Below are positions 46,703-53,470 of a stretch of 64,000 nucleotides of DNA, in pieces (the first letter of the stretch is position 1; each line of letters begins with the position of its first letter). The notes below the pieces were generated by a model. That model saw only the letters and a list, made by a program, of their open reading frames with translations, was not told where the DNA came from and ran no database searches. The stretch is from Dokdonella sp. Its GTDB lineage: Bacteria > Pseudomonadota > Gammaproteobacteria > Xanthomonadales > Rhodanobacteraceae. Made by a program: the position numbers and the translations under genes. The stretch lies in NCBI GenBank assembly GCA_016712865.1, contig JADJQH010000001.1, positions 1-64,000 of the forward strand, given 5' to 3'.

Positions 46703-47805
46703 GTTTCGATGCGTCGTCGCTGGCCAATGCGGTGCTGCGCCAGTTGCAGGCCTACGATCCCGGCCATGATCTGCCCGCCTTGCGTGCGAAATTCGGCGGG
46801 CAGTTGGCCGAGCTGGGTTCCAACGAGAACGTATCCGGTCCCAGCCCGCAGGTGTACGCGGCGTTGCAAGGGGCAATGCCCGAGATCATCCGCTACCCCG
46901 ATCCGCGCGGCATGTCGCTCAAGCGGGCGCTGGCGCGGCACCTCGGCGTCGCGACCGACGCCATTGCCCTGGGCAATGGTTCGCACGAGCTGCTGATCCT
47001 GCTGGCCCAGTGCTTCGCCGATTCACAGACCTCGATCGTGCATTCGGAATTCGGGTTTGCCGTGTTTCCCATCGCCACCGCGGTGGCGGGAGCACGCGCC
47101 ATTCGGGTCAAGGCCATGCCTGCAGACCATGCCGAGGCACCCTATGGACACGATCTGGATGCCATGGCGGCGGCGCTGCGCAACGACACGCGCATCGTTT
47201 TTCTGGCCAACCCCAACAATCCGACCGGCAGTTGGTTCGATGATGCCGCGCTTGAGCGCTTTCTCGCGCAGGTTCCGTCGCACACGCTGGTCGTGGTCGA
47301 CGAGGCCTACCGGGAATTCGTGGACGTTTCCGGATCCGGCGGGGCGATGCCGTTGCTCGACAGGTTTCCCAACCTGGTGGTGACGCGCACCTTCTCCAAG
47401 GCCTACGCACTGGCCGGCCTGCGCATCGGCTATCTGGTCGCGCATGCCTCCGTGGTTGCGGTGATCGAGCGCCTGCGCGAGTCGTTCAACGTCAATGCCA
47501 TGGCACTGGTGGCCGCCGAAGCGGCACTGGCAGACCAGGCCCATCTGCAAACGTCTTGCAGCAACACGCGTCGCGAGCGCCAGTGGTTGGCACAGCAGCT
47601 GGGTGAACGCGGCTTTCGCATCCTGCCATCGCAAACCAATTTCCTGCTTCTGGACCTGGGCCGGGATGCTGCTGCGCTGGAGCGTCAGCTGTTCGAGCGG
47701 GGCGTGATCGTGCGGCCGATGGGTGGCTACGGACTGGCCCATACCTTGCGCATCAGCATCGGCACGCGCGATGAAAACCTGCGTTTGCTGGAATCGCTGC
47801 CGTGA
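46699..47805 (+). CDS. hisC: Histidinol-phosphate/aromatic aminotransferase
   Basis: A 368-residue class I/II aminotransferase. SNENVSGPSP is near residue 33, FLANPNNPTGS near 175, and the PLP lysine is in RTFSKAYALAGLRIGY near 235. In this operon position the enzyme commonly serves phenylalanine/tyrosine synthesis as well as histidine (hisC2). Starts with GTG overlapping pheA and overlaps aroA at its end. Confidence 0.93.
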   Translation: MSFDASSLANAVLRQLQAYDPGHDLPALRAKFGGQLAELGSNENVSGPSPQVYAALQGAMPEIIRYPDPRGMSLKRALARHLGVATDAIALGNGSHELLILLAQCFADSQTSIVHSEFGFAVFPIATAVAGARAIRVKAMPADHAEAPYGHDLDAMAAALRNDTRIVFLANPNNPTGSWFDDAALERFLAQVPSHTLVVVDEAYREFVDVSGSGGAMPLLDRFPNLVVTRTFSKAYALAGLRIGYLVAHASVVAVIERLRESFNVNAMALVAAEAALADQAHLQTSCSNTRRERQWLAQQLGERGFRILPSQTNFLLLDLGRDAAALERQLFERGVIVRPMGGYGLAHTLRISIGTRDENLRLLESLP

Positions 47806-49106
47806 GCGCATCGCTGCGCTGGTGCAGTCAACCGACTCGCGGTCTGCACGGCGCGTTGCGGATTCCCGGCGACAAGTCGATTTCGCATCGCGCGATCATG
47901 CTCGCCGCCCTGGCCGAGGGCGTATCCAGCATCGACGGATTCCTCGAAGGAGAAGATACACGGGCCACTGCGCGCGCGTTCTCGCGCATGGGTGTGCAGA
48001 TCGAAGCGCCGTCATCCGCTCGGCGCGTCGTGCACGGTGTCGGCCTGCACGGCTTGAAGGCGGCGGATGGCCCCATCGATTGCGGCAATGCCGGCACCGG
48101 CATGCGCCTGTTGACCGGACTGCTCGCCGGGCAGGCCTTCGATTCCAGGCTGGTGGGTGATGCCTCGCTGTCGCGCCGACCCATGCACCGCGTCATCGAA
48201 CCCCTGGCGCGCATGGGTGCCCGAATCAGCGCCGCGGACGGTGGGCTGCCGCCCCTGCATATCCGCGGCGGATGCTCCCTGCATGGCGCACGGCATGAGC
48301 CAGCGGTGGCCAGTGCCCAGGTCAAGTCCGCCATCCTGCTCGCCGGTTTGTATGCGCAGGGCACCACCGAGGTTTACGAGGTGCAGCCCACCCGCGACTA
48401 CACCGAACGAATGCTCGAGGCCTTTGGCTGGCCCATCGAGTTCGGCAGCGGCTGGGCGCGTCTGGAAGACGGACATCGTCTGCAAGCCACCGACGTTTCG
48501 GTGCCCGCTGATTTTTCATCCGCTGCATTTTTCCTGGTGGCGGCCAGCATCGTGCCGGGTTCCCAACTGCTGCTGCATGCGGTCGGCATGAATCCCCGTC
48601 GCACGGGCCTCTTGGGCGTTCTGCGGCTGATGGGAGCGGATATCCGGGAGGAGAACCATCGCACGCAGGGTGGTGAACCTGTCGCGGACCTGCGCGTCCG
48701 CTCGGCTGCCTTGCATGGTGTGGACGTGCCGGAATCACTGGTCGCCGACATGATCGATGAATTTCCTGTGCTGTTCGTGGCGGCTGCGGCTGCCGACGGA
48801 ACGACGCGCATCAGCGGCGCACCGGAATTGCGGGTCAAGGAATCCGATCGCCTGGCCATGATGGCGCGCGGGCTTGCTGCGCTTGGCGTGCACATCGAAG
48901 AACATGCCGATGGCGCGGTGATTCAGGGCGGTCGGATAGCCGCGGGTCAGGTCGAGAGTGCTGGTGATCACCGCATCGCCATGGCTTTCTGCGTGGCAGG
49001 GTTGGTCGCCGAAGGTCCAGTTGCCATCGATGACTGCAGCAATGTGGCCACCTCGTTCCCGGGATTTGTCGATCTGGCCAACGGTTGCGGATTTGCCATT
49101 CGATAG
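47802..49106 (+). CDS. aroA: 3-phosphoshikimate 1-carboxyvinyltransferase (EPSP synthase)
   Basis: A 434-residue shikimate pathway enzyme. PGDKSISHRAIMLAALAEG near residue 22 and GNAGTGMRLLTG near 92-103 are substrate-binding signatures; KESDRLAMMARGL and DHRIAMAF mark the second half. The final 30 residues ([19 protein letters not shown]) recur, diverged, about 1 kb downstream. The gene itself is intact. In related genomes cmk follows at once; here 3.7 kb of accessory DNA intervenes. Confidence 0.96.
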   Translation: MSASLRWCSQPTRGLHGALRIPGDKSISHRAIMLAALAEGVSSIDGFLEGEDTRATARAFSRMGVQIEAPSSARRVVHGVGLHGLKAADGPIDCGNAGTGMRLLTGLLAGQAFDSRLVGDASLSRRPMHRVIEPLARMGARISAADGGLPPLHIRGGCSLHGARHEPAVASAQVKSAILLAGLYAQGTTEVYEVQPTRDYTERMLEAFGWPIEFGSGWARLEDGHRLQATDVSVPADFSSAAFFLVAASIVPGSQLLLHAVGMNPRRTGLLGVLRLMGADIREENHRTQGGEPVADLRVRSAALHGVDVPESLVADMIDEFPVLFVAAAAADGTTRISGAPELRVKESDRLAMMARGLAALGVHIEEHADGAVIQGGRIAAGQVESAGDHRIAMAFCVAGLVAEGPVAIDDCSNVATSFPGFVDLANGCGFAIR

Positions 49107-49186
49107 CGGTCAATGCAGTCCCGGTTGCTTGTGTCCCCGCACGTGTCAGTCCTCACGGTGCACGTGGTCCAGGACACCAACTTTCC

Positions 49187-49238
49187 CATGTGGCAATTCA
49201 AGACTTCACCCCAATTTCCAAGACTTGACCCCGGGCTC
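49187..49238 (+). repeat. Repeat L1 after aroA
   Basis: Begins CATGTGGCAATTCAAGACTT and ends AAGACTTGACCCCGGGCTC. The same 52 bases are at 50239-50290. Its CATGTGGCAAT-CAAGACTTGACCCC core is the reverse complement of the start of the R repeats at 50646 and 51686, giving an inverted pair around the accessory genes. Confidence 0.85.
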
Positions 49239-49261
49239 CGTCAGTCTATGGAGCCGGCGAA

Positions 49262-49483
49262 TCATGATCTATGCGCGCCCCGTACGTACCGATGCAGCAT
49301 GCCAAACAACAGCCACACAGCAACCACGCCAGCGGGCAAAAGGACCGCCACCCAAATGTACGCGTTGTGTCCACAGGCGACGCTCAAGGCAAGGCCGGGC
49401 AAGCTGCAGAAGCCGACGATAAACAGCCACCCCAGTGGCACGCCTAGCAAGAACGATGCGGGCGCCTTGACGAAGGTGATCAT
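49262..49483 (-). CDS. Small two-helix membrane protein
   Basis: A 73-residue frame with two membrane helices (FLLGVPLGWLFIVGFCSLPG and IWVAVLLPAGVVAVWLLFGM) and a short basic tail. It starts with ATG at 49483 and is not a family I recognise. It lies just inside repeat L1, beside hicA. Coding is plausible but not certain. Confidence 0.5.
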   Translation of the reverse strand: MITFVKAPASFLLGVPLGWLFIVGFCSLPGLALSVACGHNAYIWVAVLLPAGVVAVWLLFGMLHRYVRGAHRS

Positions 49484-49571
49484 GGCCTACCGCGCAGACA
49501 GTGGATGCATGACGGCGAACGGATGAGTTCAGCGGCGCGCGGGCTTTTCGCGCGTCCGCCACAACGAACTT

Positions 49572-49766
49572 TCAGAACCGCGTCGGTTCCGGTACGCCGA
49601 GGTCACGGCAGATCTTGCGTGCGAGATGATCGTTGACCTCGTTGTGTCTCGGAACGGCACTACGCTTACCCGACACCGAATGAACCCACCAAGAATGTTT
49701 GCCGCCCTCGCGCAACAAGCTGCAACCGTTGGCTTGCAGGTGCGCGAGAAGGTCGCGGCGCTTCAT
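49572..49766 (-). CDS. hicA: HicA-type toxin
   Basis: A 64-residue mRNA interferase with the double-stranded RNA-binding fold: MKRRDLLAHLQANGC, then REGGKHSWW carrying the catalytic His, and VPRHNEVNDHLARKICRDLG. In the family it cleaves mRNA and is held in check by HicB. Its start overlaps the hicB stop by four bases. Confidence 0.92.
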   Translation of the reverse strand: MKRRDLLAHLQANGCSLLREGGKHSWWVHSVSGKRSAVPRHNEVNDHLARKICRDLGVPEPTRF

Positions 49767-49975
49767 AGCGCGACGGCCAACTCCTCGTAATCTTCGCCCG
49801 CTGCGCCGCGCGCGTCGGCGCGATTGAACTCAATGGCCTCTGCGAGCGTTACCCGCAACGACTCCAAGAGCTCTTCGCGTGTTGCGCCCTGGCAGTTGAC
49901 GCCGGGAACTTCCTCGACCCAACCGATCCAGGCGCCCGCGTCTTGCTTCACGATAGCGGTGTAGGTTTGCTGCAT
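49763..49975 (-). CDS. hicB: HicB-type antitoxin
   Basis: A 70-residue antitoxin with a partial RNase H-like fold (YTAIVKQDAGAWIGWVEEVP, GVNCQGATREELLESLRVTL). It lacks a separate DNA-binding domain, as do other short HicB proteins. It precedes hicA in the operon, the less common order. Confidence 0.9.
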   Translation of the reverse strand: MQQTYTAIVKQDAGAWIGWVEEVPGVNCQGATREELLESLRVTLAEAIEFNRADARGAAGEDYEELAVAL

Positions 49976-50035
49976 GGCTCATGCCTCCGAGGGTTCAATC
50001 ATAAACTGGGACGAGCGCGCGGTTCTAGCCAAAAT

Positions 50036-50158
50036 GGCTTGCTGCATGGCGGACTGGTTGCATCGGGCGGCGTGATCATTGAGGACTGTGCGAACGTCGC
50101 CACCTCGTTTCCCGGGTTTGTCGAACTGGCCAACGGCTGTGGATTTGCCATTCGATAG
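50036..50158 (+). pseudogene. Second, diverged aroA 3' end
   Basis: The frame reads [20 protein letters not shown] then [19 protein letters not shown] and a TAG stop, closely matching the last ~40 residues of aroA but with many changes (IIEDCANV for AIDDCSNV, VEL for VDL). It is followed, like the true gene, by the same downstream sequence up to 50290. The divergence means this is not a recent copy of the local gene; it more likely came from a related strain with its own aroA junction. Confidence 0.85.
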
Positions 50159-50238
50159 CGGTGACTGCGGTCCTGGCTGGTTGTGTCCCAGTACGTGTCG
50201 GTCCTGACGGTGCATGTGGTCCAGGACACCACCTTCCC

Positions 50239-50323
50239 CATGTGGCAATTCAAGACTTCACCCCAATTTCCAAGACTTGACCCCGGGCTCGCATGTGGCA
50301 AAGCAAGACTTGACCCCGGGCTC
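50239..50323 (+). repeat. Repeats L2 and L3 (second left-type repeat, partly doubled)
   Basis: 50239-50290 repeats L1 (49187-49238) almost exactly. A shortened version (CATGTGGCAA-AGCAAGACTTGACCCCGGGCTC) follows at 50292-50323. Together they sit against the IS3 remnant, and are the mirror image of the R repeats. Confidence 0.85.
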
Positions 50324-50325
50324 TC

Positions 50326-50469
50326 ATTCAACGTTTGCGGCACGCAACCGATCTTGGCTGCGATGGAACCGATGGCAGCCCACAACGACGGGTACTGGTC
50401 ACGCTGCTCCTGCACCATGCGAACGTCGCGCTCGCGGACTTCCGGGGAAAACTTCGATGACTTGTTCAT
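50326..50469 (-). pseudogene. IS3-family transposase OrfA remnant
   Basis: About 48 residues from [20 protein letters not shown] through GCVPQTLN match the N-terminal helix-turn-helix of IS3-type OrfA proteins. The frame then runs into repeat L3, so only the first half of orfA remains and OrfB is absent. No inverted repeats of an IS are seen. Confidence 0.75.
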
Positions 50470-50645
50470 GGCTTCATTCTCTCAAGAGTTGAAGCCTCCT
50501 CAAACCCGGGGCGATTCAACCTGAGGTAAAGGGAGATCTTTCACTCCCTCCGTCTTACCAGTGGAGAAACAGCCGGGACCTGGCGTCCCCGCGAGACCAC
50601 CCAACAATGGGCGCGGGTTCAAGGCGCGAGGTCAACAAGGCGTGC

Positions 50646-50771
50646 AGGCGCGGGGTCAGGTCTTGTATTGCCACATGAGGCGCGTGGGCAGGGTCAATAC
50701 CCCTCATGCGCTGCCATTTGAAAATAGGGACTGTCGTTTCTGCCATTGCTGCTTGGATGCCGCCGGTAGCA
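50646..50771 (+). repeat. Repeat R1 in front of a cmk fragment
   Basis: 126 bases, starting AGGCGCGGGGTCAGGTCTTG and holding TTGCCACATGAGGCGCGTGG and TTGAAAATAGGGACTGTCG. It is almost identical to R2 at 51686-51812. Both end directly at the same codon of cmk. Confidence 0.85.
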
Positions 50772-50981
50772 GGTTGGCATTTGCTGGATTCCGGCGCGCT
50801 CTGCCGCGCGGTGGGCAGTGCCGGGGGTATGGTTGGCTTGGATCTTTCCGGCCGCGAGGCGGATACCCGCTGTGCCGAAACCACCAAGATCCGCTTTCGC
50901 GATCCGGCTGACGGCGGCGAAACCCGGGTCATCGTCAGCAGCCACGATGCCACCGACGAATTGCGCACCGAGACGGCCGCT
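50772..50981 (+). pseudogene. Partial cmk copy 1
   Basis: About 70 codons from [15 protein letters not shown] to [13 protein letters not shown] match cmk residues 30-103, in one open frame but with several changes and no start. The N-terminal P-loop is absent, so no kinase can be made. Confidence 0.87.
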
Positions 50982-51020
50982 GATCCACCAACTGCTGCGA
51001 ACTGTGCCGTGAGCGCGATG

Positions 51021-51323
51021 TCAGGACGGGACGGCCGTCAGCTTCACGCCCAGCGCGGTCATTACGCGCTGGACGGTGTCGAAGCGCGGGCTGGCGTCCG
51101 GGCGCAACGCGCGGTAGAGCGCTTCCCGCGTCACGCCGGAAGCCTCGGCCACCTGCGTCATGCCACGCGCACGGGCCACCGTGCCAAGCGCGCCCGCCAG
51201 TGCAGCCGGGTCGTTTTCTTCCAGCACGATGGTCAGGTATTCCGCAATGGCTTGTTCGCTATCCAGATGTTCGGCCATGTCGAAGGTTTTCAGATCGGCA
51301 AGTTTGGTTTTTTTCTTGGTCAT
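51021..51323 (-). CDS. HigA-like antitoxin (addiction module antidote)
   Basis: A 100-residue protein with a helix-turn-helix in the C-terminal half (MTQVAEASGVTREALYRALR) and the block LKTFDMAEHL near the start that marks antidotes of the TIGR02684 type. It is the downstream gene of a pair; the RelE/HigB-like toxin lies 6 bases upstream. It probably represses its own operon. Confidence 0.85.
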   Translation of the reverse strand: MTKKKTKLADLKTFDMAEHLDSEQAIAEYLTIVLEENDPAALAGALGTVARARGMTQVAEASGVTREALYRALRPDASPRFDTVQRVMTALGVKLTAVPS

Positions 51324-51329
51324 GGGGAA

Positions 51330-51629
51330 TTACTCCAAGGGAATGGTTGGGGCGAGCTTCCTGGCTGCGTCAATGTCCTTGTCCTGCGTGGACTTGTCGC
51401 CGCCGCCAAGCATCACGATGAGGACCTGCCCGCGCTGGAGGTAATACATGCGCCAGCCGGGGCCGAAGTGTTCGCGCATCTCGAACACGCCATCGCCTAC
51501 CGGCTTCACGTCGCCGAGGTTTCCGGCCTGTGCCTTTTCAAGCCTGCGCGCCAAGCGGCGGCGGGTCATGCCGTCCTTGATTCTGGACAGCCAAGCAGTG
51601 AACTCGTCAGCCTGCTTGATTGTGAACAT
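51330..51629 (-). CDS. RelE/HigB-like toxin (addiction module killer)
   Basis: A 99-residue protein of the phage-derived Gp49/HigB-like type (TIGR02683): FTIKQADEFTAWLSRIKDG, RRRLARRLEKAQAGNLGDVK, and MREHFGPGWRMYYLQRG. Such toxins are ribosome-dependent mRNA endonucleases. The ATG at 51629 is chosen over an upstream frame start for length. Followed at once by its antitoxin. Confidence 0.85.
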   Translation of the reverse strand: MFTIKQADEFTAWLSRIKDGMTRRRLARRLEKAQAGNLGDVKPVGDGVFEMREHFGPGWRMYYLQRGQVLIVMLGGGDKSTQDKDIDAARKLAPTIPLE

Positions 51630-51685
51630 GCGGAGTAGCGTAATCAATCGGTTACAGATTGCAAGCGCCATTTGCCGATGTCGGG

Positions 51686-51812
51686 AGGCGCGGGGTCAAG
51701 TCTTGTATTGCCACATGAGGCGCGTGGGCAGGGGTCAATACTCCTCAAGCGCTGCCATTTGAAAATAGGGACTGTCGTTTCTGCCATTGCTGCTTGGATG
51801 CCGCCGGTAGCA
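51686..51812 (+). repeat. Repeat R2 in front of a second cmk fragment
   Basis: 127 bases that differ from R1 at only a handful of positions (one extra G; AGG/AAG; ATG/AAG). As with R1, the last bases before the cmk homology are CCGCCGGTAGCA. Confidence 0.85.
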
Positions 51813-51884
51813 GGTTGGCATGTGCTCGATTCCGGTGTCTGGTGCAGGGCGGTCGGTTACGTGGCGGCGGTCACCCGCTGTGCC
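51813..51884 (+). pseudogene. Partial cmk copy 2, with internal deletion
   Basis: GGTTGGCATGTGCTCGATTCC begins the cmk homology at the same base as in copy 1, but the segment encoding residues about 45-55 is missing and similarity stops after ACCCGCTGTGCC. The next ~190 bases to 52072 match nothing I recognise. Confidence 0.75.
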
Positions 51885-52072
51885 CGGAATTTCGGGTCTG
51901 GAAATCCGGGGCCGCGTGAACGTTTTGAGTCGCCAGAGTTTTCTGCACCTACCTGGGGCCTGAACCGGGATCGCCCGTCCGTGCAGCGAACTGTGGCTGT
52001 TGACCGGATCGTGGCGCGGATTTGGTTTGGTGCTATAGTGCCTTCCTATTTGAAGTGTGCGTGGAGGGCTGT

Positions 52073-52351
52073 ATGAGTGGAACGGTTTCGCCACCCACCG
52101 TGAAGCTTGTGGGCGCCAACGGTCAGATTTCCCTGGGCAAACAATATGCTGGGCGTCAGGTGCTGCTTGAGGAGCAGGAGCCTGGCGTCTGGCTGGTGCG
52201 CACGGCTACCGTAATCCCGGACAACGAACGCTGGTTGCACACCCCACAAGCCGCCGCCGATTTGGGCAAGGCTCTGGATTGGGCGATCACGCACCCAGCC
52301 AGTGATGAGCAAGCAGATGTACTGATGGAGCGCCTGCATAAGGACTCGTGA
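52073..52351 (+). CDS. AbrB-like antitoxin candidate
   Basis: A 92-residue protein with a short swapped-hairpin-like segment, VGANGQISLGKQYAGRQVLL, which recalls SpoVT/AbrB DNA-binding domains, followed by an Ala-rich helical part and a charged end. Its stop overlaps the start of the next gene (TGATG), which looks like a RelE-fold toxin. The pairing suggests an antitoxin; the subfamily is not one I can name. Confidence 0.65.
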   Translation: MSGTVSPPTVKLVGANGQISLGKQYAGRQVLLEEQEPGVWLVRTATVIPDNERWLHTPQAAADLGKALDWAITHPASDEQADVLMERLHKDS

Positions 52352-52668
52352 TGAGCGATGTCGATGTTGTTCGCCTGGATCTGAACAACCCGGTCTTTCA
52401 GCGTGATTTGCTCGGCCTGCAAAAGGTCGAACGCCATGCGGCTCTGGATACCTTGGCCAAGTTGCGCCAACTCAACTGGCAACAGGTTTACCGGGACAAG
52501 GGTTTGCATTGGGAAAAAATCGTCAGCATCAAACCGCCTCCCGGCATCGCGGCCCTTTACAGCGTGCGTATCACCCAGACCCGCCGAGCCGTAGCGTATC
52601 GGGATGGCGCATTCATTCGTTTGCTGGCCATCCCCTCGGACCACGACGCCACCTACGGCAAAAAGTGA
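52351..52668 (+). CDS. RelE/ParE-like toxin candidate
   Basis: A 105-residue protein with HWEKIVSIKPPPGIAALYSV, RITQTRRAVAYRDGAFIRLL and a final DHDATYG, a layout like the beta-sheet and C-terminal of RelE-type toxins. It directly follows the AbrB-like gene with overlapping stop and start. Classified by context and fold-like pattern only. Confidence 0.65.
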   Translation: MSDVDVVRLDLNNPVFQRDLLGLQKVERHAALDTLAKLRQLNWQQVYRDKGLHWEKIVSIKPPPGIAALYSVRITQTRRAVAYRDGAFIRLLAIPSDHDATYGKK

Positions 52669-52789
52669 ACCACACAGATGCCGCAGAGTTTTCTAGAAGA
52701 CGACGCTGGGCTGTAGACCGAACGAGGAGATGGTCGCGAAGCCTGCGCCCGCTACAATCGCGGAGTCCAACCATCCTGATCCGCGCCGA

Positions 52790-53470
52790 ATGACTGCCGA
52801 TTCCGTTCCCGTCCTCACCATTGATGGCCCTTCCGGCTCCGGCAAGGGCACGATAAGTCGCCTGGTCGCCGAGCAGTTGGGTTGGCATTTGCTCGATTCC
52901 GGCGCCTTGTACCGGGCGGTCGGTTACGCGGCGGGTGCCGCCGGTCTGGACCTCTCGGATGCGGCGGCGGTCACCCGCTGTGCCGAAACCACCAAGATCC
53001 GCTTCCGCGATCCGGGTGACGGCGGCGAAACCCGGGTCATCGTCAACAGCCACGATGCCACCGACGAATTGCGCACGGAAACGGCCGCTGCGGCGGCCTC
53101 GGCCATTGCCGCAATTCCCGGTGTGCGGGCGGCCTTGCTGGACAAGCAACGAGGCTTCCGGCGCACGCCTGGGCTGGTGGCGGACGGGCGCGACATGGGT
53201 ACGGTCATATTCCCGGACGCGGCCTTCAAGGTATTCCTTACCGCAAGCGCCGAGGAAAGGGCGAAAAGGCGCTATAAGCAGTTGAAGGATAAGGGGTTGA
53301 ATGTTACCCTTGCCGCCCTTTTGCGCGAGATCCAGGCGCGCGACGAGCGGGATGCAGCGAGAAAAGTCGCTCCTCTCCGCCCAGCACGGGACGCCCTGAC
53401 CATCGATACCACCGGTATTCCGGTTGCTGGCGTTGTTGCTGCGGTGCTTTCGGTGGTTCGTCCCGCCTGA
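52790..53470 (+). CDS. cmk: Cytidylate kinase
   Basis: A 226-residue kinase phosphorylating CMP/dCMP. The P-loop GPSGSGKGT is at residues 13-21, then [28 protein letters not shown] near 130 and RDERDAAR near 185. This copy is full length and is the one next to rpsA, so it is the working gene; two broken copies lie upstream. The start [13 protein letters not shown] at 52790 fits the family. Confidence 0.95.

Follow-up and report, generated by a model that had tools for sequence, protein, structure and literature searches.

Toxin-antitoxin (TA) genes are known to gather at chromosomal hotspots, including some that also carry repetitive extragenic palindromic (REP) sequences. Among the closest described cases are the enterobacterial relA-mazG and folA-apaH loci, plastic intergenic slots into which TA genes have inserted, which are undisturbed in other strains and can hold varied TA genes or REP sequences; a review of these loci describes the mechanism of integration as unelucidated (PMC7167474). 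We analyzed a similar slot between aroA and cmk in Dokdonella sp., within a stretch of 64,000 nt (the window) with which the 342-kb contig C1 begins, in a 3.75-Mb genome of 8 contigs referred to as G000. The 3683-bp gap contains three TA pairs, a 195-bp IS3 remnant, one scar of the aroA 3' end, two scars of cmk, and two duplicated repeats. The slot differs from the enterobacterial loci in lying between another gene pair and in combining three modules with mosaic copies of the neighboring genes. In a limited literature search, we found no account of aroA-cmk as a TA integration slot. The new elements are the aroA-cmk slot of this family and especially the mosaic scars of its two neighboring genes, which bear on the route of entry. 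Three modules together with such scars point to recombination through the flanks and not to a dedicated transposon, and they offer a clue to how TA gene pairs may enter chromosomes.

The scars are real, their similarity to the live genes lying far above chance. The end of aroA together with repeat L1 (49025-49238) is 87% identical to 50077-50290, and the larger cmk scar (cmk') is 83% identical to the native cmk over 50772-50982 (E value, 1e-57). The aroA scar (aroA') scored 61.1, compared to a maximum of 19.8 in 300 first-order Markov randomizations, and the smaller cmk scar (cmk'') scored 51.5, compared to a maximum of 21.7 in 500 such randomizations. The 3.7-kb gap, the extra aroA end, and the two partial cmk copies that a preliminary description of this DNA had reported are thus all borne out.

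Both aroA' and cmk' have a mosaic structure: the outer part looks foreign, and the remainder is native-like. For the outer part of aroA' (50052-50116), the native aroA ranked 12th among 13 genomes (61.5%) and the nearest was G034 (73.8%), whereas for the inner part (50117-50155) the native gene matched at 92.3% and the next of the 13 genomes at 80.6%. Over the whole length, the native aroA comes out on top of the 13 genomes aligned (74.6%) because the inner part dominates the alignment. Differences between aroA' and the native gene at codon positions 1, 2, and 3 number 5, 4, and 19 over 50052-50155 and 1, 1, and 12 over 50077-50155; such a pattern arises in a working gene, and the outer part therefore acquired its differences in a separate lineage. 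Similarly, cmk' is 67.7% identical to the native cmk at 50772-50867, where the nearest of 13 genomes is G010 (75.0%), and 94.0% identical to it at 50868-50984. This mosaic makeup of aroA' and cmk' points to recombination with imported DNA. The third scar, cmk'', is native-like: its first 48 bases agree with the native cmk at 42 positions and with cmk' at 33, and it carries a 33-bp deletion.

The repeats tell a partly different story. L1 and L2 are 90.2% identical, with 98.3% in the half that bears a 26-bp motif (see below) and 83.8% in the aroA-side half. R1 and R2 are 97.6% identical over 125 bases and end at the same position of cmk; they therefore have a recent origin in common, though the adjoining cmk parts differ, and part of the right-hand array is better explained by duplication. 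The preliminary description had listed three L repeats and two R repeats and had derived all flanking pieces from relatives, by homologous recombination or repeat-driven transposition. Its L1/L2 and R1/R2 copies stand, its L3 reduces to a third copy of the motif, and an origin from relatives fits two of the three scars. Duplication could also be extended to the whole gap: local tandem copying of the aroA 3' end with L and of R with the cmk 5' end, followed by TA insertion and decay, would require no donor DNA. The near identity and common end point of R1 and R2, the native-like cmk'', and the 92-94% identity of the inner parts of aroA' and cmk' to the live genes all agree with such a history, but the outer parts of the same scars are nearer to other genomes and switch sharply to native-like sequence. 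Such a switch is not expected from neutral decay and argues against a local copy, making this explanation rather unlikely. We also considered whether the end of R is itself a decayed cmk 5' end, but its score was reached by 23/2000 and 34/2000 randomizations and exceeded in unrelated windows, which leaves the match only suggestive.

Our preferred explanation, held with moderate confidence, is that homologous recombination in a flanking gene brought in DNA of relatives, the opposite end of which was closed by illegitimate joining, leaving scars in a permissive slot. We infer the route, the joining, and the order of steps as follows. DNA of related species, carrying TA genes beside parts of aroA or cmk, would have entered the cell and undergone homologous recombination with aroA on the left side or cmk on the right. 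The other end may have been sealed by illegitimate joining, the combination known as homology-facilitated illegitimate recombination (HFIR), leaving behind truncated mosaic copies of the neighboring gene. Repeats of the type associated with REP-associated tyrosine transposases (RAYTs), together with a co-imported IS3 copy, could have supplied further homology, and R1 and R2 were probably duplicated later via such recombination. Both aroA and cmk are needed by the cell, so the live copies would remain intact, and the TA genes may persist because their loss is costly (addiction). This scheme would account both for the pieces of neighboring genes between the modules and for the foreign-to-native switch inside each larger scar. 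Events of this kind have been reported from three competent species (PMC2884548). The published cases of HFIR and small variable segments (PMC2884548 and PMC3240628) likewise combine a homologous joint with an illegitimate one and place a variable segment between core genes. The Dokdonella case differs in being deduced from scars only: where HFIR joins one donor by a homologous and a nonhomologous end, aroA' and cmk' contain change points, and no donor genome was found.

Several observations weigh against import through the flanks. The outer part of cmk' differs from the native gene at 5, 9, and 17 sites of codon positions 1, 2, and 3, which speaks less clearly for a working gene than the pattern in aroA' does, and the nearest-genome assignments given above are to be read loosely because the compared stretches are short (65, 39, 96, and 117 bases). 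Donor searches of 233 family genomes for cmk'/R1 and of 60 relatives for the whole gap were negative, and no donor of aroA' emerged from a comparison of its parts with just 13 genomes. Two separate imports account for R1 and R2 less well than duplication does, and their shared end is not explained by the joining scheme alone, which has to assume the later duplication. G000 does contain a ComEC gene, but the profile also matches 10/14 control genomes, E. coli included, so competence can only be called possible. The surroundings of the gap supply evidence on both sides. We compared the window in 182 windows of 300 bp with G003, the closest genome by cmk and rpsA among the relatives compared, and obtained a median identity of 90.7%. 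A low block at 46.5-48.9 kb (the end of pheA, hisC, and aroA; mean, 76%) adjoins the gap, with values lowered from ~44.3 kb, and beyond the gap cmk and rpsA are again at 92-98%; protein identities are 99.6% for cmk, 99.3% for rpsA, 84% for aroA, and 73% for hisC. The block speaks for import next to the gap and fits exchange with an unsampled close relative, the data being compatible with either the G000 or the G003 lineage as the recipient. Other low blocks (4.2-8.1 and 61.2-62.7 kb; 75-78% to G003) lie far from the gap, so the replacement beside it may be coincidence, and hisC and aroA did not emerge as clear xenologues, G000 and G003 remaining sisters on long branches in both trees.

To place the locus in context, we surveyed the region upstream of cmk in 59 family genomes, including G000. 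In 41 of these, aroA lies upstream on the same strand; the other 18 had no aroA in the stretch read, which was short for some. Most linked gaps (30/41) measure 38-309 bp, and 11/41 exceed 500 bp: 3683 bp in G000, 6140 bp in G009, 2046 bp in G022, 1902 bp in G251, 1263 bp in G003, 1217 bp in G252, 802 bp in G001, 766 bp in G062, 763 bp in G005, 723 bp in G253, and 578 bp in G010. Chosen open reading frames (ORFs) of five long-gap genomes were assigned by Pfam. The gap of G003 holds a PIN toxin and an RHH-like partner (the partner below cut-off), that of G062 a Phd antitoxin and a PIN toxin, and that of G022 an AbiEii nucleotidyltransferase with a partner matching no known family; G001 has a universal stress protein and G253 a tautomerase. 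By eye only, G005 has a stress protein resembling that of G001, G009 has cytochrome-like ORFs, G251 and G252 have a hydroxylase-like ORF, and G010 has no convincing gene. TA-type genes thus occupy the slot in 4/41 linked family genomes including G000, all of them different, and in this family the aroA-cmk junction is a permissive site that has received TA genes repeatedly. Since relatives fill the same slot with other TA-type genes, its natural empty, single, and multiple states can be compared, which makes the entry route testable.

The preliminary description had envisaged a TA-rich hotspot that records its history in scars. The hotspot is supported by the survey, and flanking-gene scars have so far been seen in G000 only: none of 11 gaps (the ten other long ones and the 309-bp gap of G079) contained an aroA or cmk scar when each was compared with the flanks of its own genome, the only matches being two short ones at chance level, one of 27 bp to aroA in reverse orientation (G022) and one of 44 bp to sequence far downstream of cmk (G001). 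The tight aroA-cmk linkage assumed in that description holds at class level. In a nonrandom sample of 69 class genomes, drawn from the better-scoring of 176 matching genomes, aroA lies upstream of cmk in 63, with gaps from -10 to 299 bp, and 6 have no aroA in the stretch; all 63 linked gaps are therefore ≤299 bp, the 299-bp gap belonging to an aroA only 28.8% identical. Two further features of the slot were noted in passing. Next to its PIN-toxin pair, the gap of G003 (L019) contains a 68-bp sequence repeated exactly in tandem, along with a second pair of repeats, and ORFs of ~660-815 amino acids over cmk in several class genomes (e.g., G531, G527, and G593) suggest aroA-cmk fusions.

The three TA modules of Dokdonella are supported to different degrees. 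In the first, HicA exceeds the curated cut-off (PF07927, 39.4 bits versus 27), and its partner, which lies in the expected position beside hicA, has only sub-threshold matches to DUF1902/UPF0150 and a HicB-like family (phrog_497; E value, 0.015), so that the earlier HicBA assignment is secure for the toxin and putative for HicB. The HigBA-like pair is confirmed, with both members over the NCBIfam cut-offs (TIGR02683, 123.4 bits, for the toxin; TIGR02684, 122.5 bits, for the antitoxin) and the toxin gene preceding the antitoxin gene as in the HI1419/HI1420 (HigBA-like) type. The third pair matched nothing in Pfam or NCBIfam (the antitoxin being tested in a longer form), and its toxin matched none of the PDB sequences. 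Weak matches of the toxin were PADLOC NsnC (E value, 9.7e-5) and phrog_8366 (E value, 7.5e-4); the best PHROG match of the putative antitoxin had an E value of only 0.11. The toxin was modeled with AlphaFold from a two-sequence alignment of the window and viral contig L124 (71% identical); the best of five models had a predicted local distance difference test (pLDDT) score of 75.7, and the other four had 40-54. The top Foldseek matches in the PDB were mostly RelE, YoeB, and YafQ toxins, led by RelE (1wmi; E value, 5.5e-4; TMq, 0.57), the sole match at an E value of ≤0.001. The second gene is therefore a predicted toxin with a RelE fold (RelE/ParE superfamily), in agreement with that half of the AbrB/RelE label given previously; the AbrB half was assigned by eye only and finds no database support, and neither does a "two-helix" protein named in the same description. 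The third pair is rare: beyond G000, we found one weak match in 299 genomes of the order, four plasmid records, and one viral locus. The two genes are adjacent also in L124, with a similar neighboring ORF, and in a Burkholderia ubonensis plasmid, where both are annotated as hypothetical.

The motif shared by the repeats, GGGGTCAAGTCTTGNATTGCCACATG, raises the possibility of transposition. At ≤2 mismatches, G000 has six copies, of which five lie in the gap and the sixth at C1:184995, and a 14-base core recurs once at C8:186031 with one mismatch. The motif is present in only 3/233 family genomes and, in a slightly looser form, in 20/369 class genomes, with none for a reversed control pattern among the matches listed; exact matches occur in six named stretches, and the viral contigs searched for the exact motif had none. 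Elsewhere, a RAYT (Y1) gene is found in 6/37 motif loci versus 0/129 control loci (Fisher p, 9e-5). The RAYT query was taken from L065, and leaving out that locus and the weak, distant match in L218 gives 4/35 motif loci (p, 0.002); the motif loci are not fully independent because several share one genome. The RAYT gene lies within ~260 bp of the motif in L064, L065, L201, L203, and L208 and ~1.3 kb off in L218; the motif stands on both sides of it in L065, and close inverted, REPIN-like pairs (REPIN, REP doublet forming hairpins) occur in L062, G762, and G701. L and R fold no better than shuffles (z, -0.68 and +1.76, respectively), no RAYT gene is present in the gap, and the four Y1 matches of G000 lie elsewhere, none near the motif. 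We therefore call it a RAYT-associated motif and not a REP: association with RAYT is seen in other genomes and not in G000, and the folding palindrome and the many dispersed copies are lacking. The published description of REPs and REPINs (PMC3116915) matches the motif in other genomes, where it lies near RAYT genes and forms close inverted pairs, but the Dokdonella motif has few, clustered copies, no excess folding, and no RAYT nearby.

On this basis, one could suppose that TA cassettes bounded by RAYT-type repeats were moved by a Y1 (HUH) transposase, with L and R as the ends of the element. The RAYT genes at motif loci, their flanking on both sides in L065, and the restriction of the motif in G000 to two places, each within ~2.4 kb of TA-like genes, speak for such a view. 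Against it stand the Y1 matches of G000 lying outside the gap, the lack of excess folding in L and R, and the gene content of class motif loci: Pfam analysis of 122 ORFs at 25/29 of these loci placed Y1_Tnp in three members, and the 25 families listed, of a total of 87, included none of TA type, so an association of motif and TA genes is not general on present evidence. We also know of no flanking-gene scars from Y1 transposition, and we consider transposition of this kind decidedly unlikely. Equally doubtful is the broader idea that TA modules spread between bacteria in cassettes bounded by RAYT repeats and that a foreign repeat was imported with TA genes at both places in G000. If it were true, chromosomal TA genes would generally spread by way of RAYT repeats, which would either be mobilized in trans by a Y1 transposase or serve as homology for recombination. 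Judged by titles, none of the literature joining RAYT and TA concerned the present subject. The second motif place in G000 (L047, G000:C1:182338-187485) is flanked, with labels by eye, by a RelE-like ORF (C1:182338-182628) and a HipBA-like pair (C1:185828-187485).

Collapsed or misjoined repeats in the assembly are a hardly credible explanation of the gap. The region is rich in repeats, and R1 and R2 differ by just 2.4%, but the other repeat copies differ by 10-17%, the gap lies in a 342-kb contig of an 8-contig assembly, and other genomes have filled gaps at the same slot. The order of features (Table 1) is L1, HicAB (-), aroA', L2, the third motif copy, the IS3 remnant, R1, cmk', the HI1419/HI1420-type pair (-), R2, cmk'', a two-gene operon (+), and the upstream region of the native cmk. 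The IS3 orfA remnant named previously is confirmed, at 92% identity to G004 and up to 82.7% to plasmid IS3 transposases among the matches listed. Other origins were considered and rejected: no tRNA that could mark an island lies at 44.0-56.5 kb, the best plasmid match covers just 14% of the whole block at 67% identity, and a single phage record covers 3% of it. An Rfam scan of the gap yielded no RNA element at gathering score.

Table 1. Features of the aroA-cmk gap of Dokdonella sp. G000 and its flanks (positions in the window)
Feature	Position	Strand	Evidence and remarks
aroA, intact left flank	47802..49106	+	TIGR01356, PF00275
Repeat L1	49107..49238		RAYT-associated motif (reverse) 49187-49212; 90.2% to L2
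Small ORF	49262..49483	-	No curated cut-off passed; best PHROG E 0.24
HicA-type toxin	49572..49766	-	PF07927 E 6e-10, over cut-off; phrog_353 toxin
HicB-like putative antitoxin	49763..49975	-	Overlaps hicA; DUF1902/UPF0150 sub-threshold, phrog_497 E 0.015, placement
aroA' scar, 3' end of second aroA	50034..50158	+	Mosaic; normal stop at end
Repeat L2	50159..50290		Motif 50239-50264; repeat alignment
Third motif copy (formerly L3)	50292..50317	-	Motif match
IS3-family remnant, one end and orfA start	50324..50518	-	92% to G004; plasmid IS3 transposases
Repeat R1	50646..50771		Motif 50652-50677; repeat alignment
cmk' scar	50772..50984	+	Mosaic; match to own cmk
HI1420-type antitoxin	51021..51323	-	TIGR02684, PF21716
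HI1419-type RelE/ParE toxin	51330..51671	-	Upstream of own antitoxin; TIGR02683
Repeat R2	51686..51811		Motif 51692-51717; repeat alignment
cmk'' scar	51813..51885	+	Native-like cmk minus 33 bp
Putative antitoxin, third pair	52073..52351	+	AbrB-like by eye only
Predicted RelE-fold toxin, third pair	52348..52668	+	AlphaFold model and Foldseek
Right flank: native cmk, intact, with its promoter region	52718..53470	+	G003 homology from 52718; TIGR00017

An integron integrase gene at the start of the same contig (window 218-1156; TIGR02249, 482 bits, over cut-off) suggests one more route, the insertion of cassettes by IntI at a secondary (attG-like) site. TA genes are common as integron cargo, which agrees with this route, but in a simple scan without positive control neither the gap nor any of 12 control stretches of the window yielded an attC-like pair whose arms are complementary, and cassette insertion would be expected to leave no pieces of aroA or cmk. 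We regard it as very improbable. The attI site and any cassette array would lie past the contig end. Downstream of intI, at 1168-1400 of the window, a stretch of ~85 bp recurs ~150 bp apart by eye (ggttcgagacggcgg...), and pieces of a second, broken integron integrase are found at G000:C2:870434-870895.

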